DNA from: Calvatia gigantea
Taxonomy: Eukaryota; Basidiomycota; Agaricomycetes; Agaricales; Lycoperdaceae
Length of the DNA: 64,000 nt
Reading direction: 5' to 3'
Assembly (NCBI GenBank): GCA_025093985.1
Contig: JACAAK010000005.1
Coordinates: 2,790,001 to 2,854,000 of the forward strand
Shown here: positions 17,908 through 48,064 of the stretch, piece by piece
Numbering within the stretch: position 1 is the first letter of the stretch
Layout: each line of letters begins with the position of its first letter
Position numbers and translations under genes: made by a program
The notes under the pieces: generated by a model
What the model was told of the DNA's origin: nothing
The model's input: only the letters and a program-made list of their open reading frames with translations
Databases searched by the model: none

Positions 17908-19370
17908 TCAGACATCAGATGCAACTCTTGTCGGATGCTCAAACCAAATATCAGTCCAAAATGCTCGCTTCGGAAGCAACGATAAGTACCTTGTCCCCAA
18001 TCCTACGGGTGTCTTGCCCAACGTCGTGCGTGACACGACTCGTTCGGGAACACCTGGTCTCGCGTCCGCCAGCGTCGTCAGCGTCATATTAGGGTGGCTC
18101 CACAGTCTGTCAGGGAGCGGAGCCCATCCGAAGCGTACAGTGCTACTAACATTTATCTTCTTGAGCGACTCAAATCGGGACATGAGCATATCCGAGAGCT
18201 CCCACCCCTTGTCATGTAAATGGTGAACATCCAACGACTTCAAGTTGGGTAACAGGGGCTTAGCATGAGGAGATAGCGTCAGCAGCTTGAAGAAATCATT
18301 GACTGCCCAGACGACCTTGAGTTCGACGAGGATTTGAAGTTGGGCAAGTGAAAAGAAGCGGGCTATAGAGTCTTTTGGCATGCCCACGAGAACTAGCCCT
18401 TTGAGAGTTCGTAGATGACACCCGGAGCGGTCGATGAATGTGTATAGTCCCTCAACGAATCTTTGATCGATGCCTTCGTCAGGGGCTACTTCAAGATATT
18501 GAAGGTGGGGGCACGTAAAGCGTTGGAGGATTGGTAGAACCGAGGCACGGGTACCAGGAGTCCTGAGTATGGAGATGTTGCGCAGCTTGTCCAGGGTGAG
18601 ATGAATGTCGGGAAGAGAGTAATGTAATTCTTGCTCGCCGTCTTTAATGTTGACCTGGACCATTTCCAGGTTCGGCCAATGAGCCAGCAACCTGATTAAG
18701 TCATCCAGTAGTTGTGGTTCATGACAGATGAATTCTGTTATACCCTTATGCATAGGTCCGACTGGCATGCTTCGTACTTCCAGCTTGCTCACATGGGGGT
18801 CGTAGACGACCCGAGGCCAAAGCCAAGCCGACAGCTGCGGATCCCATGGCTCACGATCGATAGGTCACAAGGGGGTACAGCTCAGGAGGATGTTCAAGAT
18901 CGACGTCGGCGCGAATATCGTGCATTCCTAAGCCTCCATCCCCTGGGATGTCGGCGAATTCGAAATCGATGTGTTCCCACAGAAACAACCACCTTCAGCA
19001 CACTCTGTTGATTAAGTCGTTGCTTGTTGCCGTGGTCTCCTTGTCCGATCTTCCGAATGACTTTTCGACAAATTCAAGGATGAGTGGAAAATAGTCAGCT
19101 CTTTCGAGCCAGAGTTTGGAGAGAAGACCGAGTGACGGTTCTAGGACGAAGACGAAGGTCCAGAGGTTTGCAAAGGTCCATGCGATGTTGCGCCAGAGCC
19201 ACAGACATGAATGAGGGGTATCGGAGTCGAGAATGTATCCGTAGAGTAGCGGACTGGACCAGTTTTGGGGACTCTGGAGTTTAATGTAATGTATAGAGAT
19301 TTCATAAAGAATTTCCGCTGGTAGATCATTAATGCCAGCTGCGTTGAGTTTGCCATTTCGAGAGCGACGT
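17908..19370 (-). pseudogene. F-box/LRR-type protein, duplicate 1 (broken 5' part)
   Basis: The 294-codon frame 17908-18792 matches the C-terminal two thirds of the protein at 28542-30177, including KLEVRSMPVGPMHKG, DLIRLLAHWPNLEMVQ, LTLDKLRNISIL, CPHLQYLEVAPDEG and LVLVGMPKDSIARFF. These are leucine-rich segments typical of basidiomycete F-box substrate adaptors. Upstream, remnants of the F-box and linker survive in three frames to about 19370 (LPAEILYE, LYITLNS, EFVEKSFGRSDKETTATS), with an in-frame stop in the segment corresponding to RLIDRDPW and several small indels. Single-base insertions alone could explain part of this, so its status as a dead copy is probable, not certain. Confidence 0.65.
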
Positions 19371-20047: not shown

Positions 20048-20265
20048 TCAACCGCACTGACAGTGACGGCCGCATGGGCAGCTGTAGTAGATATCCGTCA
20101 GTGTTTGGGGTAGGAAGAAATTGGATACACCCTCACACCCGACCGCAAGAGCACATGGGATTATAGCATCCTTTGTCTGTGAGAGAAGTCGTAGCGGTGT
20201 GCTGATGCATATATGGATTAGGTATCCCTGAGAGCAGAACGGGGGGAGTTGGTTGTGCTAACCAT
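20048..20265 (-). CDS. Metallothionein-like 7-Cys protein, gene 1
   Basis: Found by manual splicing. Exon 1 is only the ATG (20265-20263). Intron 1 (20262-20202, gttagc...cag) precedes exon 2 (20201-20137). Intron 2 (20136-20082, gtgagg...cag) precedes exon 3 (20081-20048, TGA). The product has 33 aa, begins MHTATTSLTDKG, and its cysteines are spaced C-x4-C-x-C-x3-C-x-C-x3-C-x-C. It has no aromatic residue except one Tyr. Seven Cys in C-x-C units, small size and no other domain match fungal copper metallothioneins, which bind Cu(I) in the cytosol. Residues between cysteines differ from genes 2 and 3 (GRV, GRH) while the Cys frame is kept, which argues for selection on the spliced protein. Metal specificity is inference. 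Confidence 0.82.
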
Positions 20266-20325
20266 GATATCAATGAAAGTTGGTCAAGTTGGAGGATAGG
20301 ATCAACCGACGTTGCCTTTTAAGTT

Positions 20326-20332
20326 TTTTATA
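20326..20332 (-). promoter_or_regulatory. TATA box of metallothionein-like gene 1
   Basis: TATAAAA on the minus strand, 61 bp upstream of the ATG. The same box occurs at a similar distance in all four paralogs. Confidence 0.65.
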
Positions 20333-20599
20333 CTATCCTTCACCTCAGTTGGCGCGTCACATCAGCGTCACGCCAGCCAAACCACCTCAATGAGCGTGAC
20401 AAGCACAGCAACTTCCAGACCGCGTTGCAGTCCACGGAGAAATATTGAAAAAATTGGACAATGTTTTAAAATTCAAATAATCTATGATGCAAATTTTCAC
20501 AGATTGGAGGAAGGGAAGGTGGCGAACGCCAACTGGGGGGGAGCGCCAACCGAGGGTGAAGGATACTAACCAGGGCAGCTGCAGGCAGGTCAAGATAGG

Positions 20600-22598
20600 G
20601 GAGATAAGGTCGTTGTCCTTATCAGGCAAGTTGCAAGTTGTACCTGAATAGAATAATTTCTTGTCAAGTCACAATTCTCAATGTAATCAGCCTCGCCTGA
20701 AGGACAGAACTACGACAAGAACAACTAGTGTTTCTTATCAACGCTGTCCGGTGCATCGCCTTGTGCTTTTTGTCTCATCAATTTCTTTCAGAAAATAACT
20801 GCTCGGTTAAGCTGAAGGATTTGCTTACTGTTCGCCACCATCGAGGTGGGGTCGTTGACCCTTAAGGTTTCCGCCCAGACGCGACATTCGGCAGTATCGA
20901 GACCAACCCGACCTGTTGCTCAACCTCATCTCATATGTCCTGCCTACCCTTATCTTTCCCTTTGCAAGTTACCTGCTGAGTGCCATCCTACCAAAAATTT
21001 GTTCTCTACATATTTACATCTCAAGGATATTCGGTGCCTCGCTAACGGCTTCAAAAGCATCTGATTAAATCTGCCAAACACAGGTAAATGCATGTTCTAT
21101 GGGCTCCCTTGGCCAGGCTACCAAAGTGGTGCGGTGACTGGAACTGGCCGCACGTAGGCTGGACGAGCGCTGAAGTGCAGATACTGGATACAGGCTAACT
21201 TATAACAGCGGATAGAGGGGCGGGTAGGAAATTGGTGCATCTTGACTTGATTGCCGCTCTGCGTGATAACTAGGTATGAACCTCCAAGATAATGGTCTAT
21301 ACATGAGCACAGTAGGCAGAGAGTAGATTGGTTAATATTTGATCTTCTGAAGTCTAGTGGGCGTATCCCTAAAACATCCGAAGTGATATTAGAGAGAAGA
21401 CGGTGCAGAGCGTGGGTTTCTATGGTTGAGTCAAACCTCAGTTCACTTGGCCCGTCGGATGATGGATTAGGACTTGCACGACCTTTCTCGGAGGGGTACT
21501 TCAGACGGGTGGGTCGTAGACCTTCATTGGATGAGACTGGGGATCCGTTCGTTCACAGCACGCCCAAAGAGAATCAAGTGGCGTTGTGACTTGTCCGGAA
21601 ACCGCTGGTTTGGTACGCCCTTTCCTTCCTGGGGAAGGAAAGAGCTAGACCAGTGGCTTGCCGTCGTTGATCACTTGTTTGAAAATGATCACCTGTTTGG
21701 GAACTGTGATTTATAGACAATCCCATTTTCTGAAATTGTCATAAAATCTTGAAAAAACAAGAAACCAATTCTCACCATATGCAACAAGCCCCATGCAAAA
21801 TCACGAGTGGATAGCTGCAGAGAGGGCTGAGAAAATCGCCTGCGACTCAAAATTTGCAAGGGGACCATCAACGAAAGTAGCTCTTTATATCTCAGGTATA
21901 TCGGAATGTAGTACTTGGACAGATCTGACCTTCAAAGAACATTTCTGGAACGGTCCGCTGGTGCGCTCCGGTTAGATTAAACATGTAAATTGGCAACTTT
22001 TGTGCGGAAATTTCGAACCTCGTCTTCTAACGTCTGTCACAACTGTCAATAATATGATCGTAGATGAGGGAGGGGGTAGGAGTTGAAAGCAGACAATACA
22101 AAGAGATTGTAATTGACATGCCGAACATCGGCTGATACGTCAGAGCTTCTCTACAACAATTGATTGAGCAAAATTTAAGGACCCAATTATCTGCAAAAGT
22201 ATAGAAAAATGCAAGAAAATAATATTATGGTGCTTCCGGAGGCATACTTGGTGAAATTTTGAGGGATAGGGGCAGTGACCCAGCCATCTCCGGATCACTA
22301 CCCCAATCCTTCAGGATTTGACCAAGTTCCCCTGTGAATCCATCGGAAATTACTTTTCCGCATTTTTCTGTATGCCTAGAGAAGACTTGTTATTTAAGAT
22401 GTATTCGGAAAAATTGCTGTAAAGCGGCCTTTCCAGCATATGTCGTTGATTTAAGAGGCCACGTGACTCAAAAAAACGTCAACTGTGAAAGTGTGAAAAT
22501 GAACCGCGGACTTCCCGTATGCCCTAGGCGGGGTTAGGGCGTGTAATTTCATCACGGCCATTGCCGCTAATTGGCATTCAGGGCAACACAGCTCACTG
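20600..22598. other. Intergenic, partly duplicated spacer
   Basis: No gene recognised. About 20640-21000 matches 31610-31850 and 34020-34260. The 21560-21640 segment (aagtggcgttgtg...tttggta) recurs near 31870, 34490 and 37150, marking repeated spacer units. A block with 'tagctctttatatctcaggtatat' at 21880-21905 partly recurs at 52360-52445; I could not define an element. Confidence 0.5.
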
Positions 22599-24716
22599 TT
22601 GATGTTGAGGCAATATCGCCATTTCCCCTCCATGATATTCAAATTCCTCAATTGTTTGAAAAGTCAACATCCCGGCCCGGAAGGGCGGGTGCGTGGTCGG
22701 TCTGACCATTCCCCCCCTCCAAAATTCGACCAAGGGCGTGGCGGCCGAACTGCCGACACCGCCAGAGTTGCCGCCCAAAAATCCAGATGCAACGACGACC
22801 ACACCAACCCCGCTCGCACAGTGGACGCCGCCCATCCAGAATTTAGTGGACTCAATCACGACTACTTTATTCACCCTCCTGCCAACTATTCCGACCACGT
22901 CCCTGCAACGAACCCTCCGGATCCGAGCATTAGCCGCGGGAAGCCTAGCAGCACACCACTACTTCATGTCCCAGGATCCGGTACCAGTCACCTCGACTCC
23001 CGTCACAACTCTGAAGTGCCTCCCCACCAACCTGCAGCAGGATTTGGTGGGTGGAATGTCTTCATGAAATCGTTTTTTTGGCTCATTAGATATTTTCCAT
23101 AGATGCCGCCAATGCACAGAACAGTAATGATGGCGTCAACTTCTTTCAAGAAGCCCGTAATATCAGTGTTAGTGGCTCAAATATAGCTGGTATCAATGGG
23201 TCAGTCAGCATCGTCAACAAGTACCTCGACTCTGGGAAAGCCGGTATTTACTCCCGAGTTATAGCCTAGAGATTGGCTTGTTAAATACATTACAACAGGC
23301 TTGAAAGCTCTTCTTCCCTACGTATGCTCGGGAGCGGCAGTGGATTCGGGTGAGCGGGATCCACCCCCACTGTGTCATCCGGGAACTCGTAAAGAAATTC
23401 AGGATAGACTGTTGATCTGGTTTGACAATATCGAACGCCAGCGACAGATGATATGGGTCACCGGGCCTGCTGGCACTGGTAAATCGGCTGTGGCTCAGTC
23501 CTTCTCCGAGCTCTGCGTCAAGAAAGGCCGCTTCGGAGCGGCCTTCTTCTTCTCCCGGTCAAACAAGCGGGACAAACCCAACACGGTCATTCCAACCCTC
23601 GCATATCAAATGGCCACGCGCTTCCCCGACTACAAGGTGCTTCTCATGAAACGTATCACCAGCGACCCTACCATCCTCGAGAAAACCCGTCGCATTCAAT
23701 TCACGGAGCTCATTATTGAGCCCATCTCAATTTTACAGGCGCGAGGACACCCAACCACTCGAGACCCACTTCTTATCCTCCTTGACAGCTTGGATGAATG
23801 TGAGGGAACGGCCGCCCAGTGCGAGTTTGTGGAGATGATTGGTGAGGTCGCACGGCCGAAGAAGAACCTTCCCCTCCTTTGGTTGATCTGCAGCCGCCCA
23901 GAACCACACCTTAAGCGTATCTTCCTACGGCCCGACTTTGTCGTTAATTGTGACAAGGAGGAGCTTTTAATTGATGCAAGGACCCGAAGTGATGTTGACC
24001 TCCTTTTACGCGACGGCTTTTCAAAACTTCGGGCAGAGTTCCCGGACGTTACAGACTCATCTTGGCCATCGAGAAACCAATTTAATACGGTGTCAAAGAT
24101 CACCTCCGGCCTTTTCGTCCTTGCATCGACCATTATGAAGTACCTCGGCGACCCCAAGTATGCAGATCCAATGGGGCGCCTTGTCACTCTGCTAGAATTC
24201 ATGCAGGACGCCCGTAGAATTGGCATAAAAAACCCTCTCGAGGCCCTCGATCTACTTTACTCCATGATCCTTGCCGACATACCAGGCGATATCCTCCCAG
24301 CGACAAAGAGGATATTAGCATACCATATAGCATTACAATCCTTCCCATTTGGGAAATTTACCCTCCAGACCCTCTGCAATTTCTTGAATATTGAGCGGAG
24401 TGCCTTGTATGTCGCTATGCAGAGACTCCACTCAGTGGTCGATGTGCCTTCACCCGAGGACGCCCACGAGCTACATCTACAATTTCATCATGCATCATTC
24501 GAGGAATATCTTACCAACCCCATCAGAAGTGGGAGGTTCGCGATTGCAATCGACGCGAGCAGAGCTCGTGTTGAGATCCCCAAACTCTGTCCTTTTACGT
24601 ACAAGACTAATAGGATGGACACTGGCACGTCTTTTACGATTTGTCATGATAACGAATGCTTACGGGAAGTACAGATCCCCTGTGGGATTCGATTCAAACT
24701 TCTGAAAAAGGCATGA
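22599..24716 (+). CDS. NACHT-domain STAND NTPase (fungal NLR-like)
   Basis: Predicted signal-transduction NTPase like fungal NLR proteins that act in self/non-self recognition. Exon 1 (22599 or internal ATG, to 23046) is Pro-rich and low complexity. Exon 2 (from 23103) encodes NISVSGSNIAGINGSVSIVN, the short beta-like motif common before fungal NACHT domains. Exon 3 starts about 23300 with GLKALLPYVCSGAAVDSGE. The NACHT domain follows: Walker A GPAGTGKS (about 23464-23487), AAFFFSRSNKRD, Walker B LLILLDSLDECEG (about 23771-23809), and LPLLWLICSRPEPHL. The winged-helix-like region ends HLQFHHASFEEYL. The frame ends at 24716 without WD, ankyrin or TPR repeats. A kinase module starts immediately downstream on the same strand, and an unseen intron near 24600-24700 could join the two into one protein. 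Confidence 0.88.
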
Positions 24717-26090
24717 TTGATCTTCTGCAAACACGGATTCTCCGTTCCAAAGAGTGCTATCAGGCACTCTTCGAGGCAAAAGGTGCCAACGCTCAACAGA
24801 TTCTCAATATTCTTCAAAAGGTTCTCCGACCACATCTGTAGACATGTATAGTATGAACTGACTATCGTTCGCAGTTCCTGAGTGCTTATCTAGTTGACGA
24901 TGCGGCTAGACAATCAGTGCTGACGGCATTTTTGCGGTTATCTGTCTCATCAGGGATCTTTCCTCGACAGGTGGGACTCGATGGGATTGAACAGCCGCCT
25001 GACGCTATTGAAAGGGGTGCATCCACAAACATATACAAGAGCAGGTATCGAGGTCACCAGGTTTGCCTGAAGGCGGTGAAGTTACCTAGAGCATCAAATG
25101 CCGATTCTGTATACAGAGTACGTCGTGGAGCCTCTTGATGTTCAAAATTGATCAATTTCTTGAGAAACTCTAGACCTTCTTTCGTGAAGCTGTGATATGG
25201 AGTCAACTTGCGCATCCGAACATCTTGCCGTTGTATGGGATATATCATCTACCTGATTCTCAGCATGGGGTAGGGCTCGTATCTCCTTGGATAGCAAATG
25301 GTAACCTGTGTGCATATGTGAAAGCACATCCCCGTACGCCGCGACTGCCGATTGTGGGTATCCTTCATGCGCAACCCTGGGCCACTCACAATTGTCGATA
25401 GGTCCATGACATCTTGGCTGGGTTACGATACCTGCACCGGCACCAGATTGTCCATGGCAGTGTTTTGGGGGTAAGGATAGGAATCAGTCATCGTCACCGG
25501 GATGAGAATCTGACAGGTTCACAGGCAAACATCCTCATCAAAGGCGACGGCTCTGCCTGCCTCATAGATTTCGGATTATCAAGGTTTGATCCTGATGTAC
25601 CCGAACTGAATCCATTTGGGGGTGGTATAGTCCAATGGTGCGCCCCGGAGGCATTTGGCACGGGTCAGGGCTTTCCGAGTGATGTTTATTCAATGGCGTC
25701 TACCATGTTGGAGGTAATTTCATTCAGACGTCTTGACTGTGTTCATTGGTGATTGGGACTTTGGTGTAGATGTTTACCGGAAAAGCCCCCTTCCGCGATA
25801 TTAATAGGGAAATAGTCAAGGTGATGAAGGCGCAAGGAATCTTGCCAGAAAGACCTAGCCACGAGGAGGCACCACAGCTGACGGATGACATCTGGGCAAT
25901 TATGATGGACTGTTGGAGTTTAACTCCCAGTGAGCGACCTACCGTGAGTGAGGTCATAAAGCGGCTCCCTTCGTCACCACAGATCCGGCGTGTGCAAGAG
26001 GACTTTTGGAGGCCCAAAACTACCTGGACAGCAACGGAGATGAGTGCGGACAGGACGTTCTTGAGGGATTTCGTGGGTATAACTTTTTAG
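24656..26090 (+). CDS. Protein kinase-like domain lacking the catalytic Asp
   Basis: TKL-type kinase fold as found in many basidiomycete expansions. The helical N-terminal extension (ILRSKECYQALFEAKG, FLSAYLVDDAARQSVLTAFL) precedes the kinase domain. Visible motifs over about seven exons: a weak Gly loop (ERGASTNIYKSRYRG), beta-3 Lys in VCLKAVKL, helix C Glu in FFREAVIWSQLAHPNIL, hinge LVSPWIANGNL, and a catalytic loop reading VHGSVLG joined across an intron to ANILI. DFGLSRF is at about 25567, followed by WCAPEAF, SDVYSMASTMLE, FTGKAPFRDI and CWSLTPSERPTVSEV. In the catalytic loop the usual HGD/HRD Asp is Ser (codon 25459-25461), so a pseudokinase is likely. The start is uncertain because the module may be the C-terminal part of the NACHT gene. 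Confidence 0.82.
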
Positions 26091-27761
26091 GATGTCTTAT
26101 TACGAGATAACCTCACAACCCACAGTTTAACCTTGATTGATAGTGAACTACGCCGGTGTCTTTGCATTACCGGAGCTTGCAAAGAGAGGAGACGTGCGAA
26201 CTTGCATAGAAATGAGGAATTTAAATAACAGTGGAAATTGGAATATTTGATTGGGTATATGTCATGATATCGGGGGAGAAAGGTTCTTGGTATTGAGAGG
26301 GCGAAGCTGGGCAGACCAGTGAGAGAGTACAACAAACCAACTATATCAACTAATTTTTTCTACGGTTAACGACGTTGCTTTTATACCCCAAACGACACAT
26401 ACTATCTATGTTCAAGGCTCATTGTACTGTAAACAAAGGGGAGGAGTAAGAGGAAAGGGTGCAAGATCAGAGTTGAGTGGAGGTAATAGTACTGGAACGT
26501 CGCCTAATGCTGACGAAAATTCTCGGGATATGTTTGCTACGTGACGGAAGAAGAGACTGGAAGTTGAAAGCAAAGCGCAAGCGTGGCAGCCTAGCCGGTG
26601 GTCCTGAGATGCACACCTGCATAATTTTTAGAGAGGGCCCAGGACTCCAACAGACGAGCAGAGCAGATTATGGCGTTCGACGGAAGTGGCAGGTTTGGCA
26701 GTTAGGCACTCCAGACTGAACAAGCAACCAAGTCCATAATAGGAGACCGAAGGACTCTATGCTCGGTGGAACACGTCGAGGCGTATGTGTGTTAGCCCTC
26801 CCGAGTAGCATTGCGATAGGGAGTGGGATGGGTCCGGTATGTACTTGGGGGATTGTCTTCCATATCAGGGAGGTTCCACGGAGGAGCATGGAATCGCAGT
26901 CATTGTGTCTGAGGGTAAAGCACATTGGGCTCGTCGAAGAGGAAGTGATAATACTGATTGTTTCCTGCGCCGGCTCACAGCATGGTTGGGTCGTTGTGAA
27001 CCGTGCCGGGGATCAGCTCTTACCCCACGCAGCAGGTTTGGAGAGGGGCCAGAGTAAAGGCATTTGAACTGCAAGCACGTTGGGATAATGATGTGTCTGG
27101 AGCCGTTGAGCAGAAAATCGCGAGGAATCACAAAGGCGGGTACAGAGCGTAAGCCACTTCGGGAGGGGGAGAACCTCAGCGTTAATTGTGTGAGAAGAGC
27201 CAGAATACTAGCTCTATGGGCGTCAGTTATGAGAGGGGGGATGAGGTTGAGGTGGCTCAACCAACGTTTGGGGTCTGGACGAATGACACTCACCGCGTGG
27301 ACTGGGTAGCCCCCATGTTGAACGTGGTTTCTTTGTCCGGCTCCCCTTCCTGAGCATTGTAGCCGATTGTCGATGAGTTTCATCTGTTCTGCACTGCCAA
27401 CCGGGGTGTTAGCATGGCTTGCGTGGAGAAAGAAAGAAAGAAACCTTATCTAACGCTCCAATGCCTGGCAAGAGCACATTCGGTTTGTCCTCGGCCCCCA
27501 TCCGGCATTATGGACATCCTAGTGCCCATAGGGAACTGCATTTTCCCTGAGGTGGCTAGGGAGAGGTAAAAACTCCGATTATGCGTTATGGGTTATACAC
27601 GGCTTGTGCTTCCTCATTGAAATATTGGCATTGCGGTTGTGGTTCAAATACTCAGCAGAAGCCACCCCACGGGGTTCTCGTCGTGATCGATTGATCCGTG
27701 ACATTGATGGTACAAACGTTCAAGCTCCTGCAACGAGCGAGTGCACCCATCACTGGTTGGT
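26091..27761. other. Intergenic, no recognisable gene
   Basis: Contains overlapping open frames on both strands (longest on minus, 172 codons, 26865-27383) without recognisable motifs. A short (gaaa)n microsatellite lies at 27428-27443. The base composition is unremarkable. It ends where the second duplication copy begins. Confidence 0.5.
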
Positions 27762-28220
27762 ATGTGAAGCATCACCTTGATAAGGCCATAAGGTATGAGT
27801 GCTATGTGAGTACGCCCACGTGTGTTATGTTAGCCCGCTTTGTTTTGGTTTCGTTCATTCTCTGTGTGCACCATCCTGCCGGGTCGTTCTTTTGCTTCAT
27901 TTTCCTTAGGATGGTGATGAAGAGAAATTCAAATTTGTAGCTGAAGCTCGTGCAGTGCTCTCTGACCCACAATGACGCTAGCGGTACGATTTTGGCGAAG
28001 GATGAAGGCGGGATGAACGACGGTGGTGGTATGGGTGGTGGATTCAAGCATATGGACCTCTCAGAAATCGTTGCACAGTTCCAGGGAGGCGGTATAGGGC
28101 GGTGGTGGATTTAGCGGGTTCAGTGATGGATTCCCTGGTGGTGCCCGGTTCACTTGACAAGGAGGTGTCTGTGGACGGAAGAGGATTCCATTCCGGCGCA
28201 AGGGTTCCCTGTTCTGACTG
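27762..28220 (+). pseudogene. Decayed 3' end of the DNAJC7-like gene
   Basis: Matches 17150-17600: a remnant of the HPD-containing exon (KHHLDK), the last intron, then GDEEKFKFVAEARAVLSDPQ followed by a stop in place of RRQRYD, and the Gly-rich tail with deletions and a premature stop. No upstream exons are present, so it is a truncated copy carried by the segmental duplication. Confidence 0.85.
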
Positions 28221-28541
28221 GGATGGGTTCTGCTGCCTGTTGGTTTGGGATAGTCGACGCAATATCTGGAGGAGGGTCATAGTCTCTGATATGTTCGGTT
28301 CCTTTCTTGGATGATATTCGATATTTGAATCTGGCACATCTCGCACTTCTTTTGTATTTACGCACTGCAGAAATTTCGTTTGAAATATAATCCATCAGAT
28401 ACGCGACATACTTCTGTGTTACATAGGTAGCAGTGAAAATACCGGACGCGCGTTGGGTACAAGTACAAGTTTGTCCATTGGTCCATTGAAGTGATCTAAT
28501 GTTCGGAGAATCTTGGGCAGTGCAGGACGAGGGGAGAAGAA

Positions 28542-30177
28542 TCAGACATCAAACCCCGTCCCTGTCGGATGCTCAAACCAAATATCAGTCCAAAATGCTC
28601 GCTTCGGAAGCAACGACGAATACCTTGTACCCGATCCTACAGGTTTCTCGCCCAACTTAGTGCGCGACACGACTCGTTCGGGAACACCTGGTCTCGCGTC
28701 CGCCAGCGTCGTCAGCGTCATATTAGGGTGGCTCCACAGTCTGTCAGGGAGCGGTGCCCATCCGAAGCGTACAGTGCTACTAACGTTTATCTCCTCGAGC
28801 GACTCAAACCGGGACATGAGCATATCCGAGAGCTCCCACCCCTTGTCATGCAAATGGTGGACGTCCAACGACTTCAAGTTGGGTAACAGGCGCTTAGCAT
28901 GAGGGGATAGCGTCAGCAGCTTGAAGAAAGTCATTGACTGCCCAGACGACCTTGAGTTCGACGAGGCTTTGAAGTTGGGCAAGTGAAAAGAGGCGGGCTA
29001 TAGAGTCTTTTGGCATGCCCACGAGAACTAGCCCTTTGAGAGTTCGTAGATGACACCCGGAGCGGTCGATGAATGTGTATAGTCCCTCAACGAATCTTTG
29101 ATCGATGCCTTCGTCAGGGGCTACTTCAAGATATTGAAGGTGGGGACACGTAAAGCGTTGGAGGATTGGTAGAACCGAGGCACGGGTACCAGGAGTCCTG
29201 AGTATGGAGATGTGGCGCAGCTTGTCCAGGGTGAGGTGAATGTCGGGAAGAGAGTAATGTAATTCTTGCTCGCCGTGTTTAATGCTGACCTGGACCATAT
29301 CCAGGTTCGGCCAATGAGCCAGCAACCTGATTAAGTCATCTAGTAGTTGTGGTTCATGACAGATGAATTCTGTTATACCCTTATGCATAGGTCCAACTGG
29401 TATGCTCCGTACCTCCAGCTTGCTCACATGCGGGTTGTAGACGACCCGAGACCAAAGCCAAGCCGATAGCTGTGGATCCCATGGGTCACGATCAATAAGT
29501 CGCACGGAATACAGCTCAGGAGGATGTTCAAGATCGACGTCGGTGCGGATATCATGCATTCCTGACCCGCCGTCTCCTCTTATGTCGGCAAATTCGAAAT
29601 TGATGTGTTCCCACAGGAACAACCACCTCCAGAACACTCTGTTGATTAAGTCGCTGCTTGTTGCCGTGGTCTCCTTGTCCGATCTTCCGAATGACTTTTC
29701 GACGAATTCGAGGTTGAGTGGGAAGCAGTCAGCTCTCTCGAGCCATAGCTCGACCAAGGGGATAATATTGCGTGAAGGTCCTAGGACGAAAATGGAAGTC
29801 CAGAGATTGGCGAAGGTACATGTGATGTTGCGCCAATGACCACAGACGTGAGTGAGGGGCATCGGAGTCGAGAATGTCTCCATAGAATGGCGGACGGTAG
29901 GCTTGGACCAGTTTTGAGGACTCGGGAGATTAATATAGTGCATAAAGATTTCGTAAAAAATCTCCACTGGCAAATCATTGATACCAATTGCTTCAGGCCT
30001 ACCATGACGAGAACGAGGGAATGGCATCCTAACAATATTTGAGGAAGAACTCAAATCAGCAGTATGTGAATAACTTGAAGAATCTAAACTCACCGGGTTA
30101 ATGAAGGCGGAAATCAGGATAGTAACGGAGTGATAACTCCCGTAATTTATGCCTGCAATCTTATTGTCAAAATCCAT
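28542..30177 (-). CDS. F-box/LRR-type protein, duplicate 2
   Basis: Probable substrate adaptor of an SCF ubiquitin ligase. A 427-codon frame (30177-28894, or starting at the internal ATG 30027) has the F-box INDLPVEIFYEIFMHYINL, then CGHWRNITCTFANLW, a linker and leucine-rich segments (KLEVRSIPVGPMHKG, LLAHWPNLDMVQ, LTLDKLRHISIL, FVEGLYTFIDRSG). The last 130 residues continue in another frame (28982-28542) ending GFDV. The break is one extra g at 28930 compared with duplicate 1 (gaagaaagtcattg against gaagaaatcattg), so the full protein would be about 550 aa. Otherwise well preserved. Confidence 0.8.
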
Positions 30178-31192
30178 GCTTACCCCTTAGGCCTTGACCT
30201 TCTGCTTTTCAACAGCTCCCAGGAGAACATGGCTTGACATCAAGTGAATCTATGGTGGAAACAATTGACATGCGTCTCCCGGACAAACAGAGCTTCGTCG
30301 GTTGCCGCGAGTTTGATTACAATACACTAAGGTTGGCAGTGTTGCAGCTGTGTGAATACGGGGAAGTGACAGCCGAACATTTATGCAAGTAGCCCATAAC
30401 AAAAAGCCGCGCCGCCTAAGCGCCGTTCTTGCTAAAGTTTATTGTGTTTGGTTGTTGATCAGTTGTGTTTGGTTGTTGATCAGCATCGTCCAGTGCCTCA
30501 CCTTCAAGCGTTACCTCGTCTAATTCGTTGGCAATGCCACTGCCTAGTAACGATCCAGGACTGTTACCATCGCTAGCGCCTTGTTATTGTCTGAATATCA
30601 AAAAGACTTATAGTTTATGTTGAAGTTATTTTCGCTGCGCGTTCCCACCTCCTTGAATGTTGTTGACCTCGACCTTTCTCCCGGTCACGACCTTCACTCG
30701 AAGTGAAGCCACCTGACTTACAGTGGTACCTGTTCTGTGTATCCCACGTGTGGTTACCTTTACCTTTCCATTGCCCGGTGAACGTTTACATCAATGAGAC
30801 TAGAAATTCCTTCGTTCGGAACGTTGCTGAAAAGATGACGCTGTGGCATGACACCTGTCGCACCTGTTAGTCTGGTGCCTCCTTTGCTTTCTCTGTGTAC
30901 GCGAGCTATTAATCAAAAGTCACCGGAGTCATTGAAACAGTGTACAACCTTCCACCACTGCTATAACAGTGCAGGGCGACTTGCATTACGACACCTGTTA
31001 TCTAGGTTGCTGATATCACACGAATTTGAAGAGTCATAGCTAGAATTCTTCAACGAGAGCAGCAAGAAGTCGTCAATAAGTCTGATCTCATCGTGCGAGG
31101 TCCGCCAATTGAATGATACATAGGTATTTGTACATTATTTCGGTTACTCAATGATGACTACCAACTGGTCATGAGACAAGTCATGGCCATGG
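30178..31192. other. Spacer of duplication unit 2
   Basis: No gene recognised. It contains a perfect short tandem duplication (gtgtttggttgttgatca, about 30448-30485). Confidence 0.5.
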
Positions 31193-31413
31193 TCAGTTGC
31201 AAGTGCACCTCTTGCATGGGCAGCTGTAGTAGACGTACGTTATTATTGGGGATAAGAAGAAATAGGATACACCCTCACTCCCGGCACTCGCAGAGAGGAT
31301 TGTAGCAGGCTTGATCTGTAAGAGACGGCGTAGCAGTGTGCTGCAAAGAGAGAAGCATAGATGGGTCAGGTATCTCTGAGGGCGGAGCGGGGGACCTGAA
31401 TTATGCTGACCAT
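31193..31413 (-). CDS. Metallothionein-like 7-Cys protein, gene 2
   Basis: Same architecture as gene 1: ATG-only exon 1 (31413-31411), intron 1 (31410-31341, gtcagc...cag), exon 2 (31340-31279), intron 2 (31278-31224, gtgagg...cag), exon 3 (31223-31193, TGA). The product has 31 aa beginning MHTATPSLTDQA with cysteines C-x4-C-x-C-x2-C-x-C-x2-C-x-C, ending CTCN. It is the duplication partner of gene 1, and it shares a recent duplication with gene 3. Confidence 0.85.
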
Positions 31414-31462
31414 GATGGATAAAAGTAGGCCAAGCTGGGGAAATGACTGGTTACATGTGGCC

Positions 31463-31469
31463 TTTTATA
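31463..31469 (-). promoter_or_regulatory. TATA box of metallothionein-like gene 2
   Basis: TATAAAA on the minus strand about 50 bp upstream of the ATG, inside a block (acatgtggccttttataag) shared with gene 3 and partly with gene 4. Confidence 0.65.
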
Positions 31470-31934
31470 AGTTTTCACCCACAGTTCTGTAACGCCAACC
31501 GGGATAGGATAGGAGGAGACAATCCGGGACCCAAAGCAGTTAGATCGGGTCGCCACCTTAATCACCTGGAATTTTGCCAAGTCTGGTTTCAACTTTTCCC
31601 CACGTAATGGGTTTTTCCGCAAGGAACAGAACTGTGACAAGAACCTCGACTTGATCATGAAATCAACGCTGTCCAGTGCATCACCTTGCTATTGTCAGGC
31701 TCGTCAACAATTTTCTGTCGTTACTATTTCGTTGAGCCGTCAAGCTTTCTTCCCGGGAGCAGTTTGACGATATCGAGGTTAACCCGACTTGCTGCTCGAC
31801 CTAATCTCGTATCTCCTGTCCATGTTTGACTTTCCCTTTACTCACAGCGCTCCTTCAAAAATGACAAAGTGGCGTTGTGCGAACCGTTGATTTGGTACAT
31901 CCTTTCTTCTTCTGCTTGTTCAAGCCATTGACTA

Positions 31935-32129
31935 TGGTGCAGGGTGCTTAGTCATTGAACTTGCCCAGAGGCAGAAAAAAACCACACATGAGGTGCTTTT
32001 GGTGCAAAGAATATACTCAAGCGGCTGCAGGCAATAATTAAAGATTTACACCACAATTGGACACTTAGGGTCCTTCTATATTTGGTGGAGGCTTGTTCAA
32101 AAGTTCTGGCCTCTAGGCGCCCTGCACCA
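31935..32129. mobile_element. TA-flanked MITE with terminal inverted repeats
   Basis: A 195 bp insertion whose ends are inverted repeats: TGGTGCAGGGTGCTTAG at the left and the complement of TGGTGCAGGGCGCCTAG at the right. It is flanked by TA on both sides (31933-31934, 32130-32131). The tandem partner unit at about 34560 has the uninterrupted site gacTAgactaaatg. TA duplication and short inverted ends are typical of non-autonomous Tc1/mariner-type elements. No coding sequence. Confidence 0.85.
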
Positions 32130-32399
32130 TAGATTAAATGATTCTAAGAAACCCGTTGTAACACCGTTAACATTTCTCATATTACGAAGTTGCGCCAACT
32201 GACCTATCTTATCATTAACGTTATTTCACTACTTTTAGCTTCAATGTCGGAGTATTTAAATGATATGGGCAGTGCGCATACATGCGCTCGGACAATTCTG
32301 GACTCTGTGACGAATGGCGACCATAGGACTCGTCCAATTTGGACTGCTGGTAGCAGGACCTTGATTTTGTTCGACAACTGAATATTCCTGCGCCCTAGT

Positions 32400-33010
32400 T
32401 AGTAGACTTGTGCGGATCTCCGTTATCTCTTCATCAACAAATCCAATTGTACGTACTTCTTGGGCTGCTAGACCGCAATTCAAAGTCGTTCCGGTCGAGA
32501 CCTGCATGAACCCTTTCAGCTTCCTGAACAGCCCGACTCCAAGCACCCCGAACCCAACCTGGGCCCCCTCACAGGACTTCCAGGAAAACTCGGCCCATCT
32601 AGGCGGCCGTAGTTTGGAATGGAAGAGCAGGAAAGGCTCACGAACTGACCGTAAGTTATTGCCCAGATCGCGCTGGCTCAGGCCCTTTCTGGATGGGCCT
32701 TCAACCGGTCATAATAGGCTCTTCCGTCACAGGCCTGAACTGTTACGCCCGGACCAGACCACGGCTTATCTGGGAGTGGTAGCTCGTCAAGCTCAGGCCC
32801 TCCAATAACCGCAACCCTTTGTTATGAGCCGAGTCTCGAAACTAAAGCGTCGGACAAAACGGAACCTCCTGCCCCAATGCAATCAATCTCCAAATATTTA
32901 AGCAGAGACAAGTTGGATATCTGAGTCAACCAATTGAGGAATGCGGCATTGGCCATAACGACTGCTAGGTGAGAGAGGTGGAGTAGTTGCGGAATGCGAA
33001 GAACCCAACA
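32400..33010 (-). pseudogene. F-box/LRR-type protein relic, unit U2
   Basis: On the minus strand, broken frames read LLHLSHLAVVMANAAFLNWL, LSLLKYLEIDCIGAGGSVLS and GPELDELPLPDKPWSGPG. These are leucine-rich segments like the C-terminal half of basidiomycete F-box proteins. Stops and frame changes interrupt it, and no F-box is present. Its partner in unit U3 (34900-35780) extends further upstream. Confidence 0.6.
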
Positions 33011-33177
33011 ACATCTTCACCGGTCATTTAAATTTCTCAGTACGAGCAGCGAGGGGTCGTCAAATAGGTCTGATTTCATCGTACGACGCCATAACACTAT
33101 TGAACTTTGTACATTATTTCAGTTACTCAATATCAATGATGACTACCAGCCGGTCATAAGTCAAGTCATGGCCATGG

Positions 33178-33404
33178 TCAGTTGCAAGTACACCGAATCT
33201 TGCATGGGCAGCTGTAGTAGACATGCGTTAGTATTGGGGTAGGAAGAGATTGGATACACCCTCACTCCCGACACTCGCAGAGAGGATTTATGCAGTAATG
33301 ATCTGTAAGAGAGGACGTAGCAGTGTGCTGCAAAGAGAGAAGCATGCATAGATGGGTTAGGTATCTCTGAGGGCGGAGCGGGGGACCTGAATTATGCTGA
33401 CCAT
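33178..33404 (-). CDS. Metallothionein-like 7-Cys protein, gene 3
   Basis: ATG-only exon 1 (33404-33402), intron 1 (33401-33328), exon 2 (33327-33266), intron 2 (33265-33212), exon 3 (33211-33178, TGA). The product has 32 aa beginning MHTATSSLTDHY with cysteines C-x4-C-x-C-x2-C-x-C-x3-C-x-C. Compared with gene 2 it has one in-frame extra codon (KIR against KR) and several substitutions, yet all seven Cys and all splice sites are kept. Confidence 0.85.
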
Positions 33405-33453
33405 GATGGATAAAAGTAGGCCAAGCTGAGGAAATGACTGGTTACATGTGGCC

Positions 33454-33460
33454 TTTTATA
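33454..33460 (-). promoter_or_regulatory. TATA box of metallothionein-like gene 3
   Basis: TATAAAA on the minus strand, 50 bp upstream of the ATG, same context as in gene 2. Confidence 0.65.
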
Positions 33461-33600
33461 AGTTTTCACCACCACAGTTCTGTAACGCCAATCGGGATAG
33501 GAGAGGAGAGATAACACAGGCCCAAAGCAGCTAGATCGGGTCGCCGCCCTGATCGAATTGCACCTGTCTTGTAATATTGACACCTAGAATACTTGCCAAG

Positions 33601-34007
33601 TGCAGCACCTGGCGATGAGAAGATCCAGGCGCGACTCCCTGCGCCCAGTGTGATACGTCACAGGCATTAGCATACGGACTCGGACATCCAAACTCCCTTT
33701 ACACTTTCCCATCCCCCCCTATCTCGACATTAGACTACTCCTGACTCTATTTTCTATTTGCCCACCCACCACTACCCTTACACAAATTTAACATAGTCCA
33801 ACGAACAATATGCAGTGACCGGAAGGCACAGGGTTAGGGTGACCCGTCTGCGTCCCCCTTCGGACCACACACCTGGTTGTCGGGAACCTTTCCAAGGTCC
33901 CGATCCTCCACTCCCAGCACTCACGCGCCACGTTCTGTTTGCTTATGATACACAACACGATATTCATTTCGCAACTACCTTAGCCTACTCGTCACTACTC
34001 AGTGCAA
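33601..34007. other. About 0.4 kb insertion in unit U3, origin unknown
   Basis: Unit U2 reads gccaagtctggtttc continuously (about 31576-31590). In U3 the same words are split by about 400 bases that begin tgcagcacctggcg and end cactcagtgcaag. The flanks share only 'caag' and possible TGCA ends, so the mechanism is unclear. No coding potential recognised. Confidence 0.6.
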
Positions 34008-34271
34008 GAGTCTGGTTTTAAGTTCCCCACGTAATGGGTCTTTCCGTAAAGAACAGAACTGTGACAAGAACATTGACTTGATCATGAATTCGAAGCTGTC
34101 CAATGCATCACCTTGCTATTGCCTAGCTTATCAACTATTTGCTGTTCGTTACTATCTCGTTGGGCCGTCAAGCTTTCTTCCCAGGAGCAGTTTTCAACGA
34201 TATCGAGATTAACTCGACCTGCTGTTCAACCTAGTCTCGTATATCCAGTCTACGTCTGTTTTTTCCTTTAC

Positions 34272-34460
34272 AAATGACTTTTTGGGTATGTAGTTTTATG
34301 CCAAAAAGTCCTTGACTTAGCTATGTCATGTTGGTGGCTAGCGTCCAGTTGGGCCTGCCGGAGTGACGAAAAAACGTTTAAACGATTGGGCTTGAGGGGT
34401 ACCCCGGATCGGTCTACCACAGGTAGGCAGTGACTAGAATGACGGTCGTTGAACCGATGA
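34272..34460. mobile_element. 189 bp insertion with 9 bp target-site duplication
   Basis: Flanked by perfect ttcctttac on both sides (34263-34271 and 34461-34469). Unit U2 has a single copy of the target (tccctttac, near 31835). I see no clear terminal inverted repeats and no coding sequence, so it could be a MULE/hAT-type MITE with eroded ends or a SINE-like retroposon. Confidence 0.65.
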
Positions 34461-34899
34461 TTCCTTTACTAACAGCGCTCCTCTAAAAATGACAATGTGG
34501 TGTTGTGCGAACCATTGGTTCGGTACATCCTTTCCTTCCTCCGCTTGTTCAAGCCATGGACTAGACTAAATGGCTCTAAGGAGCCCATTGTAACTCCGTC
34601 AACATTTCTCATATTAAGACGTTGCTCGAACCGACCCATCTTATCATTAGCGTTACTTCATTATTTTAGCTTCAATGTCAGAGTACGTTATCTAAATGAC
34701 TTGGGCAGTGCGCATACAGGCGCTCGGACAGTACTGGACCCTGTGACGAACGGCGACCATAGGACTCGTCCAATTTGGACTGTTGGTAGCAGGACCTTGA
34801 TTTTGCTCGACAACGAATATTCCTACGCCCTAATTAGTAGACTTATGCGAATCTCTGTTATCTCTTCATCAACGAATCCGATCGTACGTACTTCCTGGG

Positions 34900-35780
34900 C
34901 TGTTAGACCGCATGCAAAGTCGTTCCGGTTGAGACCCACACAAACCCTTTCAGTTCTCTGTACGGCCGACTCCAAGCACCCCGACCCCAACCTGGCCCCT
35001 CTCATAGGACTTCTGGAAAGCTCGGCCCATCTAGATGGCCGTAGTTTGGAATGGAAGAGCAGGAAAGGTTCATGAACTGACCATAAGTTATTTTGTAGGT
35101 CGTGCTGGTTCTGGGTGGGCCTTCAACAGGTCGTGATAAGCTCTTCTGTCACAAACCTTAAGTGTTATGCCCCGACCAGACCAGGCTTATCCGGGAGTGG
35201 CATCTCATCAAGCTCGAGCCCTCCTATAACCGCAACCTTTTATAATGAACCGAGCCTCGAAACTAAAGCGTCGGACAAAACGGAATCTCCTGCCCCAATA
35301 CAATCAATCTCCAAATATCTGAGCAGAGGCAAGTTAGATGTCGGGTCAACCACTCGAGGAATGCGGCATTGGCCATAACGACTGCCCAGTGAGAGAGGTG
35401 GAGTAGTTGCGGAGTTGCGAAGAACCCAACAATACCTTCACCAGTCATTTGGGAGATAGGAGTCATGCGGAGAGAGATTCTGAGACCTCAGAATATATGG
35501 GCATATCACACAGCACTCCAAGGGAGCTTTTGTTGCTGTCGTAAGTGTCGAGTTCAACTAACTCGGATGGGGTAGGGATCTTCAAGAAGAGCTAGCAGAA
35601 CAAGACTAAGTTTGCCGCAGCAAAGCCTAAAGTGCTGCAAATTCGGATGCACCAATGGGATGTTTTCGGGAATGAGTTCTGGAATGAGTGCGGGGTCAGA
35701 GGCTTCAAGGGTAATATCAAGCATTTTGAGGTTTGTACATCCTCTGAGGATCGAGAGGGTCCTGCAATGTGATATGGGTT
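34900..35780 (-). pseudogene. F-box/LRR-type protein relic, unit U3
   Basis: Minus-strand segments LSILRGCTNLKMLDITLE, ALIPELIPENIPLVHPNL, QHFRLCCGKLSLVLLALL, then in another frame ELVELDTYDSNKSSLGVL, QLLHLSHWAVVMANAAFL and LLRYLEIDCIGAGDSVLS. The pattern is that of LRR-containing F-box proteins. There is no F-box; upstream it abuts a different gene family at about 35780. Confidence 0.65.
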
Positions 35781-35784
35781 GGTC

Positions 35785-37095
35785 CCCCCGCTCCGTCACA
35801 TATATCACAACCTTTCCAGGAAAGTGGTCAAAGTCAGTAAAATAGACCTTCTCCGTTGGATGAACTCCCAGTAGTGAGCACATTGGAGTCAAGGTGAAGC
35901 ACCCTCGGTGTTCTGATGTCAGAACCCGCTTGGGGTCCGGAAAATCAAACCGGAGAGCAAAGTACAGTCGCGGACAGGCAAAATCAACCAACTTTTCCGA
36001 AGTTATAGTTTTTTTTAAAAATAACCCTGGAAACGATTCTTCTCATCGAAGGCTGTCAGGAAAACTCAAAATCATAATATTCTCTCGAGCCGTTCCTCTG
36101 CAAAATGCTAAATAAGGAAATAGGACCAAAAAATTGGCAGAGGACCGAAATTTCTATAGAAATTTATGAAAATATGTGCAATCAATTCCTTTTGCTAAAG
36201 CACGAACAACCCCAGGTTTTCAAACAATTTTAACGAGCCAATGTCACGTTATTAATTGAATATTGATAATCATTATTAAACCATTTTATATCACCACCAG
36301 AACTATTCCACCAGAAAAAAGGGCAAAGCGCAGTATAGGAGGGTTTATATGATAATGGTGTGCTCGCCTATGCTTGCTTCAGCATTGGCCTCATTCCTTG
36401 TGCAAATCAAGCCATAGGCCACTGGGGATGGGGCTGATCGGCCAAGCACCGCCACTTGATACATGTCGAAACTTGAATAAAAATGATGGGATCACGCTAT
36501 CAGCCGGTGGCAACACCCACCGTCCCTCTGACTTCGAAAAATCTGGCCGGAGGTTGTATCTGATGTGACCACCCGAAAGGGGGGGACCTCGGGGGGACCC
36601 ATCCGAACACCGAGCAGCTGATGGTATCCTTGGGTTTCGACCATATATGTTGCGAAAAATTTGTGAAAAATTTTGGCAGTGACCCAAAACTCATGAGAAA
36701 AATCCGAAAGTTGTGTATTTCGACGTATTCCATGAATCCAACTCTATAGCCAAGATTTCGTGCAATTTTATCAAGCCGATCGTGAGATATTAAATTTGTT
36801 GATTTTGTTTGTCCGCGACTGTACCTCTCATATCCTTCCCTAGAATTCTCACCAACAAGGTCCTGCACAACTGTCGAACACCCAAAATTCCCAGTGCGTA
36901 CTGCGCTGTTGGGAGGGGACTGGGCAAAATAACAACCTCCAGCTTTCCAGGAATTTTCGATGGAGCAAAGTTCTTCACTTGAAGCCGCCTTTCCTGAAAG
37001 GTCAAAGGAGAATGCGTGAATTTTGGGGAGCTTGCGAATGTTCCCGAATTGGCTAGGTCCTTTGATCTGTCACCAAACCCCAAATCTCCAGACAT
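35785..37095 (-). pseudogene. F-box-family protein ('DHFSGKVV' family) interrupted by a MITE
   Basis: A minus-strand fragment homologous to the C-terminal half of the gene at 46206-48050 and to 40381-41193: QVKNFAPSKIPGKLEVVILP, PTAQYALGILGVRQ, then after an 857 bp insertion FDFPDPKRVLTSEHRGCFTL, MCSLLGVHPTEKVYF and FDHFPGKVVIYVTERGDQ. The N-terminal half is missing, the 3' end fuses to an LRR relic, and a transposable element lies inside the coding sequence. Confidence 0.8.
35965..36821. mobile_element. TA-flanked DNA element, 857 bp, non-autonomous
   Basis: The ends are CAGTCGCGGACAGGCAAAAT at the left and the complement of CAGTCGCGGACAAACAAAAT at the right, with inverted similarity extending through AATCAAC. 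TA flanks both sides (35963-35964, 36822-36823). The paralog at 40381-41193 has the empty site (aaagtacctctc near 40612-40622). TA target and CAGTCGCGGAC-type ends are typical of fungal Tc1/mariner/pogo elements. Internal frames show no transposase motif. Confidence 0.9.
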
Positions 37096-37448
37096 GATAC
37101 AATGATGTATAAGTCACGAGACTGGGGACACAGTCCGCCCTCAGGGAAATTAAGTGGCGTTGTGCCTTGTCTAAAACCATTGGTTTGGTCTGCCCTCTCC
37201 TTCCTCGGGGGAAGTATGCACACAAGCTGCAGGTCTATAATTACCTCATTGATTTACATGTGACCTTCAGTCGTCATCATGCTGAGGATGTCAGAATTTC
37301 TCAGAAATGGGAAGCAGCTCAAAGGGGGTCGTCTCATTATTAAGGTCACTCCACCATTTACGAGGTTCAGCGACTGAATGACAGTCACAAGTGTTTGTGT
37401 GCTCAGTTCTCAGTAATCACTATTACCAATTGGTTGTGATAGTACACG

Positions 37449-37688
37449 TCAGGAGTCTCCACCACCGCACTGGCATGGTCCTCCGCTTTGGCAGCCACAT
37501 AAGCAACTGTTGCATGCATGAGGGTTAATGCAAAAACAGAAAGGAGCTGGATAGACCCTTACCCCGGGCCACAGGTACAACCAGAGTCTCTGTCTGCGAA
37601 AGATATAGGAGTGGCGCGCTGTGGAAAGAGGAGCATGAGTGGGTTGGATATTGGGGAGGGAGCGGGGTAACGAAGTTGTACTGACCAT
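37449..37688 (-). CDS. Metallothionein-like 7-Cys protein, gene 4 (divergent)
   Basis: Same gene layout as genes 1-3: ATG-only exon 1 (37688-37686), intron 1 (37685-37619, gtcagt...cag), exon 2 (37618-37563), intron 2 (37562-37507, gtaagg...cag), exon 3 (37506-37449, TGA). The product has 38 aa beginning MRATPISFADRD. The seven cysteines are rearranged: C-x-C-x3-C-x-C-x-C-x5-C-x-C with Gly-rich linkers, closer in style to Neurospora-type copper metallothionein. The upstream TATA region (acgtggccttttatata) is shared with genes 2 and 3. Identical exon phases show common ancestry despite different sequence. Confidence 0.83.
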   Translation of the reverse strand: MVSTTSLPRSLPNIQPTHAPLSTARHSYIFRRQRLWLYLWPGVRVYPAPFCFCINPHACNSCLCGCQSGGPCQCGGGDS

Positions 37689-48050: not shown

Positions 48051-48064
48051 GCCACAAGGTCTCC

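Follow-up and report, generated by a model that had tools for sequence, protein, structure and literature searches.

Predicted heptaCys-type metallothionein genes with an ATG-only first coding exon in an agaric

Four loci on the minus strand of the window (the whole 64,000-nt stretch of DNA analysed), here MT1 to MT4, and a fifth copy on another contig, MT5, are best explained as intact-looking small genes for heptaCys-type metallothioneins. Local duplication of MT1-MT3 and a role in metal buffering are included in this reading, to which a probability of about 0.88 was assigned. The genes are ordinary in kind and mildly unusual in form.

At each of the four window loci, two GT-AG introns link a coding exon of ATG only to two short exons. 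The spliced frames are open, and start, stop and GT-AG sites are kept at all four loci. The predicted proteins of MT1, MT2, MT3 and MT4 are 33, 31, 32 and 38 aa long, with seven cysteines each. The coordinates, minus strand, protein lengths and cysteine counts given by the original prediction were all reproduced, and the largest coding exon in MT1-MT4 is 65 nt, as it had proposed in limiting every exon to that size. The features are as follows.

20263..20265, minus strand: MT1 coding exon 1 (ATG only)
20202-20262, minus strand: MT1 intron 1, 61 nt, donor GTTAGC
20137..20201, minus strand: MT1 exon 2, 65 nt
20082-20136, minus strand: MT1 intron 2, 55 nt, donor GTGAGG
20048..20081, minus strand: MT1 exon 3 with stop; predicted protein 33 aa, Cys spacing 4-1-3-1-3-1
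31463..31469, minus strand: MT2 TATA-like box, 56 nt before the ATG
31411..31413, minus strand: MT2 coding exon 1 (ATG only)
31341-31410, minus strand: MT2 intron 1, 70 nt, donor GTCAGC
31279..31340, minus strand: MT2 exon 2, 62 nt
31224-31278, minus strand: MT2 intron 2, 55 nt, donor GTGAGG
31193..31223, minus strand: MT2 exon 3 with stop; predicted protein 31 aa, Cys spacing 4-1-2-1-2-1
33402..33404, minus strand: MT3 coding exon 1 (ATG only)
33328-33401, minus strand: MT3 intron 1, 74 nt, donor GTCAGC
33266..33327, minus strand: MT3 exon 2, 62 nt
33212-33265, minus strand: MT3 intron 2, 54 nt, donor GTGAGG
33178..33211, minus strand: MT3 exon 3 with stop; predicted protein 32 aa, Cys spacing 4-1-2-1-3-1
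37686..37688, minus strand: MT4 coding exon 1 (ATG only)
37619-37685, minus strand: MT4 intron 1, 67 nt, donor GTCAGT
37563..37618, minus strand: MT4 exon 2, 56 nt
37507-37562, minus strand: MT4 intron 2, 56 nt, donor GTAAGG
37449..37506, minus strand: MT4 exon 3 with stop; predicted protein 38 aa, Cys spacing 1-3-1-1-5-1

All eight acceptors of MT1-MT4 end in CAG, and a branch-point-like word was found in nine of the ten introns of MT1-MT5. Intron 2 is in phase 2 in all five copies; it follows the third cysteine, in front of the fourth, in four of them and precedes the third in MT4. Enumeration returned 16, 22, 7 and 99 open two-intron models for MT1, MT2, MT3 and MT4, respectively, and some alternative intron-1 sites also keep seven cysteines. 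The GTNAG donor directly after the ATG was favoured because it occupies the homologous position in all four loci and in MT5. Judged from sequence, MT1-MT5 are presumably spliced in this way and expressed.

MT5, on contig C23, emerged when the MT1 protein was searched against the whole assembly of this one genome (E 2.6e-5; reverse search with MT5 as query, E 1.1e-4). It splices at corresponding sites to a predicted 33-aa protein, C-x4-C-x-C-x3-C-x-C-x4-C-x-C. Intron 2 of MT5 has the donor GTGACC, and intron 1 holds no match to the branch-point pattern used. Across the five predicted copies, introns measure 53-74 nt. Protein searches of the assembly with MT1, MT4 and MT5 added MT5 only, and DNA searches with MT1, MT3, MT4 and MT5 recovered only MT1-MT3 among themselves and the queries. 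A sequence profile built from MT1-MT4 and run over 264 kb returned those four only, as expected by construction.

PMC12508003 describes a C-terminal heptaCys motif, C-x4-C-x-C-x2,3-C-x-C-x4-C-x-C, in metallothioneins of Agaricales and Boletales, with Agaricus crocodilinus AcMT2, AsMT2, PiMT1, PaMT1, ShMT1/2, LbMT1 and CcMT1/2 as members. In the same source AcMT2 has three exons and introns of about 50 bp, and AcMT1 is counted in the family despite a C-x5-C departure. MT5 matches this motif exactly (4-1-3-1-4-1), for which reason MT1-MT5 were taken as paralogues of the known family. MT1, MT2 and MT3 depart from the strict motif in the last spacer alone (by 1, 2 and 1), and were filed as family variants rather than strict members because they are homologous to MT5 and the departure of AcMT1 is admitted there. 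MT4 does not fit the motif; its functional likeness rests on seven cysteines in C-x-C pairs and on the common gene architecture. The short form of up to 35 aa is seen in MT1, MT2, MT3 and MT5 (33, 31, 32 and 33 aa), MT4 having 38 aa, and the three-exon layout of AcMT2 recurs in all five predicted models. The small two-intron, metallothionein-like genes of the original prediction are borne out, although it had not assigned them to this published family. The label of copper metallothionein is narrower than the family, since members in Table 1 of that paper are listed as giving yeast protection against Cd in addition to Cu.

Cysteines are constant in four of the five copies. Among MT1-MT3, none of the seven cysteine columns is variable, compared with 13 of the 26 remaining columns (Fisher p 0.018); with MT5 included the counts are 0/7 and 19/27 (p 0.0012), and three cysteine columns carry silent changes only. 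The earlier claim that substitutions spare the cysteines therefore stands for MT1-MT3 and falls for MT4, whose cysteines are rearranged (1-3-1-1-5-1) at positions unlike those of the other copies. Among MT1, MT2 and MT3, indels in exons are of 3 nt, and introns also show indels of 1 and 4 nt. Identity of MT1 and MT2 is 0.74 in exon 2, 0.61 in exon 3, 0.74 in intron 1 and 0.82 in intron 2, and the comparison of MT5 with other copies is mixed. Conservation is not regularly higher in exons than in introns, so at the nucleotide level it is by itself no proof of coding. Between MT2 and MT3, 128 of 130 aligned bases agree when intron 1 and the 60 nt upstream are taken together (one gap of 4 nt uncounted), compared with 53 of 62 for exon 2 (p 0.0008). 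The contrast is not taken as positive selection on exon 2: identity in the remaining pieces of the duplication is 84-88%, and a conversion tract or a constrained 5' part would account for it equally well.

Chance assembly was assessed by scanning 264 kb (the window plus 200 kb flanks) alongside 10 simulated 264-kb sequences (order-3 Markov). At a threshold of at least six cysteines, nine models were obtained, every one at the four loci; one start site each appeared in two of the 10 simulations. With looser donors, two introns and at least seven cysteines, six start sites were found in the real sequence and none in any simulation. These six comprise the four MT genes and two overlapping sites approximately 85.5 kb left of the window, quite unlike the MT genes. 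With an ATG-only first exon, the counts were four real and no simulated start sites. The scan for at least seven cysteines did not recover MT5 in its 10-kb stretch because intron 1 of MT5 matches no branch-point pattern used, so its sensitivity is incomplete. Together with the cysteine constancy of MT1-MT3, the scans with random controls argue against chance.

TATA-like boxes precede all five genes. Besides that of MT2, they lie at -56 (MT3), -66 (MT4) and -59 (MT5), and MT1 has TATAAAA at -67 and CTTAAAAGG at -58. Seven-letter words common to the upstream regions are TATA-box words and AAAACTT; no word of at least eight letters is common to the five. Alignment of the 60 nt ahead of MT5 with MT1 and MT4 does not exceed that of shuffled DNA. 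The five-letter ACE1 core occurs one to three times upstream of all five genes, not above shuffled DNA (means 1.8-2.2), and was rejected. Other metal-response motifs, counted with no shuffled control, were MRE in two of five regions, STRE-like in three and a longer ACE1-like site in one; a Cuf1-like site was present upstream of none of MT1-MT5.

Duplicated DNA surrounds MT1-MT3 as follows.

17166..19337, minus strand: F-box-like gene on the downstream side of MT1, half of a duplication of 2.2 kb (87%)
27808..29986, minus strand: partner F-box-like gene downstream of MT2, the other half
31127..33029, no strand assigned: duplicated segment with MT2 and upstream DNA, copied into 33106-35450, where MT3 lies

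The copy of the last segment consists of four pieces with gaps, 84-89% identical. Beyond the stop, MT1 and MT2 remain similar (48/50 over 20049-20000, two exon bases included). MT1-MT3 were multiplied by local segmental duplication, with cysteines kept, in agreement with the cluster of copies proposed earlier. The ORF at 17908-18864 in the MT1-side F-box-like gene matched no Pfam family, and its partner gave a weak F-box-like match under Pfam's cut-off. A conserved 3' hairpin was also considered; folding of the four 3' regions gave z-scores of 0.16, -0.74, 0.45 and 0.62 relative to shuffled sequences, and no 3' structure is claimed.

Pfam and NCBIfam contained no family matched by the MT proteins, and PDB no relative, MT5 giving only matches at E 0.38-0.47 to an unrelated protein. 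A protein database searched at E up to 10 returned neither the MT copies nor relatives, with two candidates sharing words each time; this negative is weak evidence because the method requires 5-residue words in common. For one neighbouring protein, matches at 60-62% were obtained in Macrolepiota, Leucocoprinus, Leucoagaricus and Agaricus bisporus, an indication of Agaricaceae. In the window, Rfam at gathering thresholds gave two tRNAs only.

On the preferred reading, each of MT1-MT4 would have a TATA-like box 56-67 nt upstream, an ATG as the entire first coding exon, an intron of 61-74 nt, an exon of 56-65 nt, a second intron of 54-56 nt in phase 2 and a short final exon. Each would encode a seven-cysteine metallothionein of 31-38 aa akin to AcMT2, PiMT1 and LbMT1. 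Such a protein would most likely enclose a small number of soft metal ions, namely Cu(I), Cd(II) and perhaps Zn(II), in a cytosolic thiolate cluster and so buffer and detoxify them; location, metal binding and buffering are suggested by the cysteine pattern and homology. The ancestor of the copies was probably a canonical gene resembling MT5, and the order in which they were duplicated is likewise a reconstruction. Duplication of MT1-MT3 may have carried the F-box-like genes along, extra copies raising dosage and leaving spacers free to drift. A doubtful extension is that the last spacers form a natural series, from 4 (MT5) to 3 to 2, beside the rearranged MT4, tuned to different metals, and that the ATG-only exon, with the in-frame intron-1 ATG of the four cluster copies, allows a second, intron-retained isoform that might be metal-responsive.

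That the true start is instead this internal ATG appears unlikely. The proteins would then have longer N-termini and the genes one coding intron, with a short upstream frame beginning at the first ATG; output could be controlled by retaining intron 1. Intron 1 of all four window copies does contain an ATG that shares the frame of exon 2 and precedes the acceptor by 9 or 18 nt; differences between MT1 and MT2/MT3 are all silent over the codons read as PRSALRDT and stop, and the 3' end of MT1 intron 1 is weak, with no pyrimidine-rich stretch. A scanning ribosome would, however, meet the upstream ATG first, and CTCTCTTTGCAG in MT2 and MT3 resembles an ordinary 3' splice site. In MT5, intron 1 contains no ATG and the upstream frame closes after five codons, so only the model with the donor directly after the first ATG works there. 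A conserved upstream frame inside intron 1 was rejected because MT5 has none.

Decayed or non-coding duplicates are distinctly improbable. One or more of the window loci, MT4 above all, would then be relics riding with F-box gene duplications and making no working protein, as might be expected from the missing first motif cysteine and differing length of MT4 and from exon divergence often as high as that of introns. Against this, start, stop, GT-AG sites and all seven cysteines are intact in every copy, coding indels are of 3 nt, and cysteine columns are invariant in MT1-MT3 and MT5. Chance stringing of short introns and exons into cysteine-rich peptides can be dismissed: the several open models per locus, the simulated hits at six cysteines and the one unrelated overlapping pair in the real flanks are outweighed by homologous loci of one architecture, the empty simulations at seven cysteines and an exactly motif-matching fifth copy, which already contradicts it.

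If the models are right, these are agaric metallothionein genes with a bare-ATG coding exon 1 and no MT1-MT4 exon above 65 nt, hard to see because their pieces are so short. Automatic annotation could overlook genes of this kind, and mushroom metallothionein counts may be underestimates. MT1-MT5 would also form a small natural set for how cysteine spacing sets metal preference in mushrooms.

The Neurospora crassa type of copper thionein has about 25 aa and seven cysteines, C-x-C-x5-C-x-C-x3-C-x-C-x2-C. The present copies resemble it in size class, seven cysteines and C-x-C pairs; unlike it, they have a cysteine-free N-terminus, and none of MT1-MT5 shows its spacing. With the CUP1 tandem arrays of Saccharomyces cerevisiae (PMC4232551) they share an increase in metallothionein copies by local duplication, whereas the copies here are few, diverged, dispersed and contain introns. 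Among the literature matches listed (titles and abstract starts, few subscription journals), no metallothionein gene cluster in an agaric appeared beyond the duplicates of PMC12508003. Closest is that heptaCys family: its short forms have 32-35 aa and seven cysteines, AcMT2 is close in exon number, intron size and length, and the fungus studied here probably belongs to the family of fungi that includes Agaricus crocodilinus. The copies here differ from it in the last spacer of MT1, MT2 and MT3 (3, 2 and 3) and in the cysteine order of MT4; and where one to three paralogues per species and internal duplications are described there, four copies lie here within 18 kb, with one elsewhere.

The minus strand was read at the four places in the window for which short metallothionein-like genes with two introns had been predicted, and open two-intron GT-AG models were enumerated. 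Models of the predicted lengths, each encoding seven Cys, were present at 4/4 places, and the observation behind the original prediction was right. A fifth copy (MT5) was located on another contig (C23).

Metallothionein-like gene models.
20265-20048, minus strand: MT1, 33 aa, seven Cys, open two-intron GT-AG model
31413-31193, minus strand: MT2, 31 aa, seven Cys, open two-intron GT-AG model
33404-33178, minus strand: MT3, 32 aa, seven Cys, open two-intron GT-AG model
37688-37449, minus strand: MT4, 38 aa, seven Cys, open two-intron GT-AG model
C23 3774605-3774826: MT5, predicted gene, found by protein search with MT1

Coding exon 1 of the predicted MT1-MT4 models comprised the ATG alone. Intron 1 donors were GTTAGC (MT1), GTCAGC (MT2 and MT3) and GTCAGT (MT4); intron 2 donors were GTGAGG in three genes and GTAAGG in the other. 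All acceptors (8/8) ended in CAG. Intron 2 was in phase 2 throughout, positioned behind the third Cys in MT1-3 and behind the second in MT4. Other intron-1 sites retaining seven Cys were also returned by the enumeration, which makes the N-terminal assignment less secure than that of the Cys part.

At the DNA level, searches of the 46-Mb assembly matched MT1-3 to one another only and MT4 only to itself. A protein search of the assembly with MT1 identified a new place (C23 3774675-3774755; 59% identity, E 2.6e-5 for one genome). The predicted spliced product of MT5 is 33 aa (MHTTTTSITDNGCDKPSCSCGASCQCKPGECKC), with 4-1-3-1-4-1 residues between consecutive Cys. Its predicted splice sites comprised an ATG followed directly by GTTAGA, with acceptor CCCAG, and a second intron GTGACC...GTAG; a TATA-like box was present at -59. 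Intron 1 contained no ATG, and ATG followed by GT is therefore the sole workable reading at this gene. No sixth copy was found in searches with MT5 protein and MT5 DNA.

Chance occurrence was assessed by two scans. The first (one or two introns, at least six Cys, three C-x-C) covered 264 kb, comprising the window plus 100 kb on each side, and returned nine models, every one within the four MT loci; simulated sequences of equal length gave one start site each in 2/10 cases. The second (looser donors, two introns, seven Cys) yielded six start sites for the actual sequence and none in 10/10 simulations. These six were the four MT genes plus two overlapping sites approximately 85.5 kb left of the window, unlike anything at the MT loci. 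Over 10 kb around MT5, the second scan did not detect this gene because its intron 1 lacks a match to the branch-point pattern used; absence from the scan is therefore no proof that further copies are lacking.

Self-comparison identified two duplications. One of 2.2 kb (17166-19337 and 27808-29986, 87%) is situated downstream of MT1 and of MT2 and is marked as F-box-like by a single weak match; the other (31127-33029 copied within 33106-35450) carries MT2 and MT3. MT1-3 thus increased by local segmental duplication. MT4 matched no other MT gene in the self-comparison and was tied to MT1-3 through architecture and alignment. Across intron 1 together with 60 nt of upstream sequence, MT2 and MT3 shared 128/130 aligned bases (31341-31473, 33328-33464). 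This exceeds the other pieces of that duplication (84-88%), with a conversion tract and constraint as alternative explanations.

Amino-acid variation among MT1-3 affected 0/7 Cys columns and 13/26 others (p 0.018); with MT5 included the counts were 0/7 and 19/27 (p 0.0012), the test assuming independent columns while the rows are related sequences. Three Cys columns carried silent TGC/TGT changes (MT1-3 plus MT5). As its Cys fall out of alignment, MT4 entered neither count; the claim that substitutions spare the Cys held for MT1-3 but not for MT4. Counting against constraint, exon conservation is not consistently above intron conservation. Identities were 0.74 (exon 2), 0.61 (exon 3) and 0.74 and 0.82 (introns) for MT1/MT2, and 0.85 (exon 2) versus 0.99 (intron 1) for MT2/MT3. 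MT1/MT4 exon 3 (0.74) was an exception, and MT5 comparisons were mixed. The 60 nt upstream of MT5 aligned to MT1 and MT4 at the level of shuffled DNA, and better to MT2 and MT3.

No metal-related genes were found among ten neighbouring ORFs (selected from 96) submitted to Pfam. Two minus-strand tRNA-Ile (AAT) genes (14951-15024, 43550-43623) are embedded in 77 bp of sequence shared at 100% identity. Within 10-13813, a gene block is repeated in several diverged copies (70-83% in pieces). A further diverged segment pair occupies 45669-50832 (73-85% in pieces), within which ORF 47253-48050 matched no Pfam family. In ORF 23265-25752, matches to NPHP3/NACHT ATPase precede a protein-kinase fragment; the ORF resembles fungal NLR-type proteins.

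Kinship to Agaricaceae was judged from one protein, the F-box/WD ORF 56801-58138. Its overall top match (76%) was a protein without a name. The top named matches (60-62%) were from Leucoagaricus sp. (a genus of Agaricaceae), Macrolepiota fuliginosa and Leucocoprinus leucothites (both Agaricaceae by look-up), and Agaricus bisporus. Other named fungi reached approximately 45% or less at a minimum of 65% query coverage (best 120 of 245 hits). Agaricus is placed in Agaricaceae by the statement of PMC12508003 on A. crocodilinus.

Searching the protein database with the alignments yielded no match at E up to 10, Pfam and NCBIfam gave no family match for the MT proteins, and PDB gave only two matches, at chance level, for MT5. 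The likeliest reading is that the proteins would act as a cytosolic metal-thiolate buffer of known agaricomycete type; expression and splicing of the genes, location of the proteins and their metal binding and preference are all inferred. The original interpretation, a metal-buffering gene cluster, was mostly right, except that the family is already published (PMC12508003). Members in Table 1 of that paper are recorded as guarding yeast against Cd and Cu. AcMT2 of A. crocodilinus is a 32-aa protein with seven Cys, its gene comprising three exons and introns of approximately 50 bp (PMC12508003). According to the same paper, the duplicated fragment of AcMT1 ends at the first base of exon 3, matching the expectation for a phase-2 intron, which is only suggestive. 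Three points are unusual here: MT4 is rearranged, the last spacer shrinks and the predicted coding exon 1 is a bare ATG. Against the C-terminal heptaCys motif that PMC12508003 reports for agaricomycete metallothioneins, C-x4-C-x-C-x2,3-C-x-C-x4-C-x-C, MT4 (1-3-1-1-5-1) does not fit. MT1, MT2 and MT3 strictly fail, departing in the last spacer alone (3, 2 and 3); AcMT1 is counted in the family despite a change in another spacer. MT5 fits the motif exactly.
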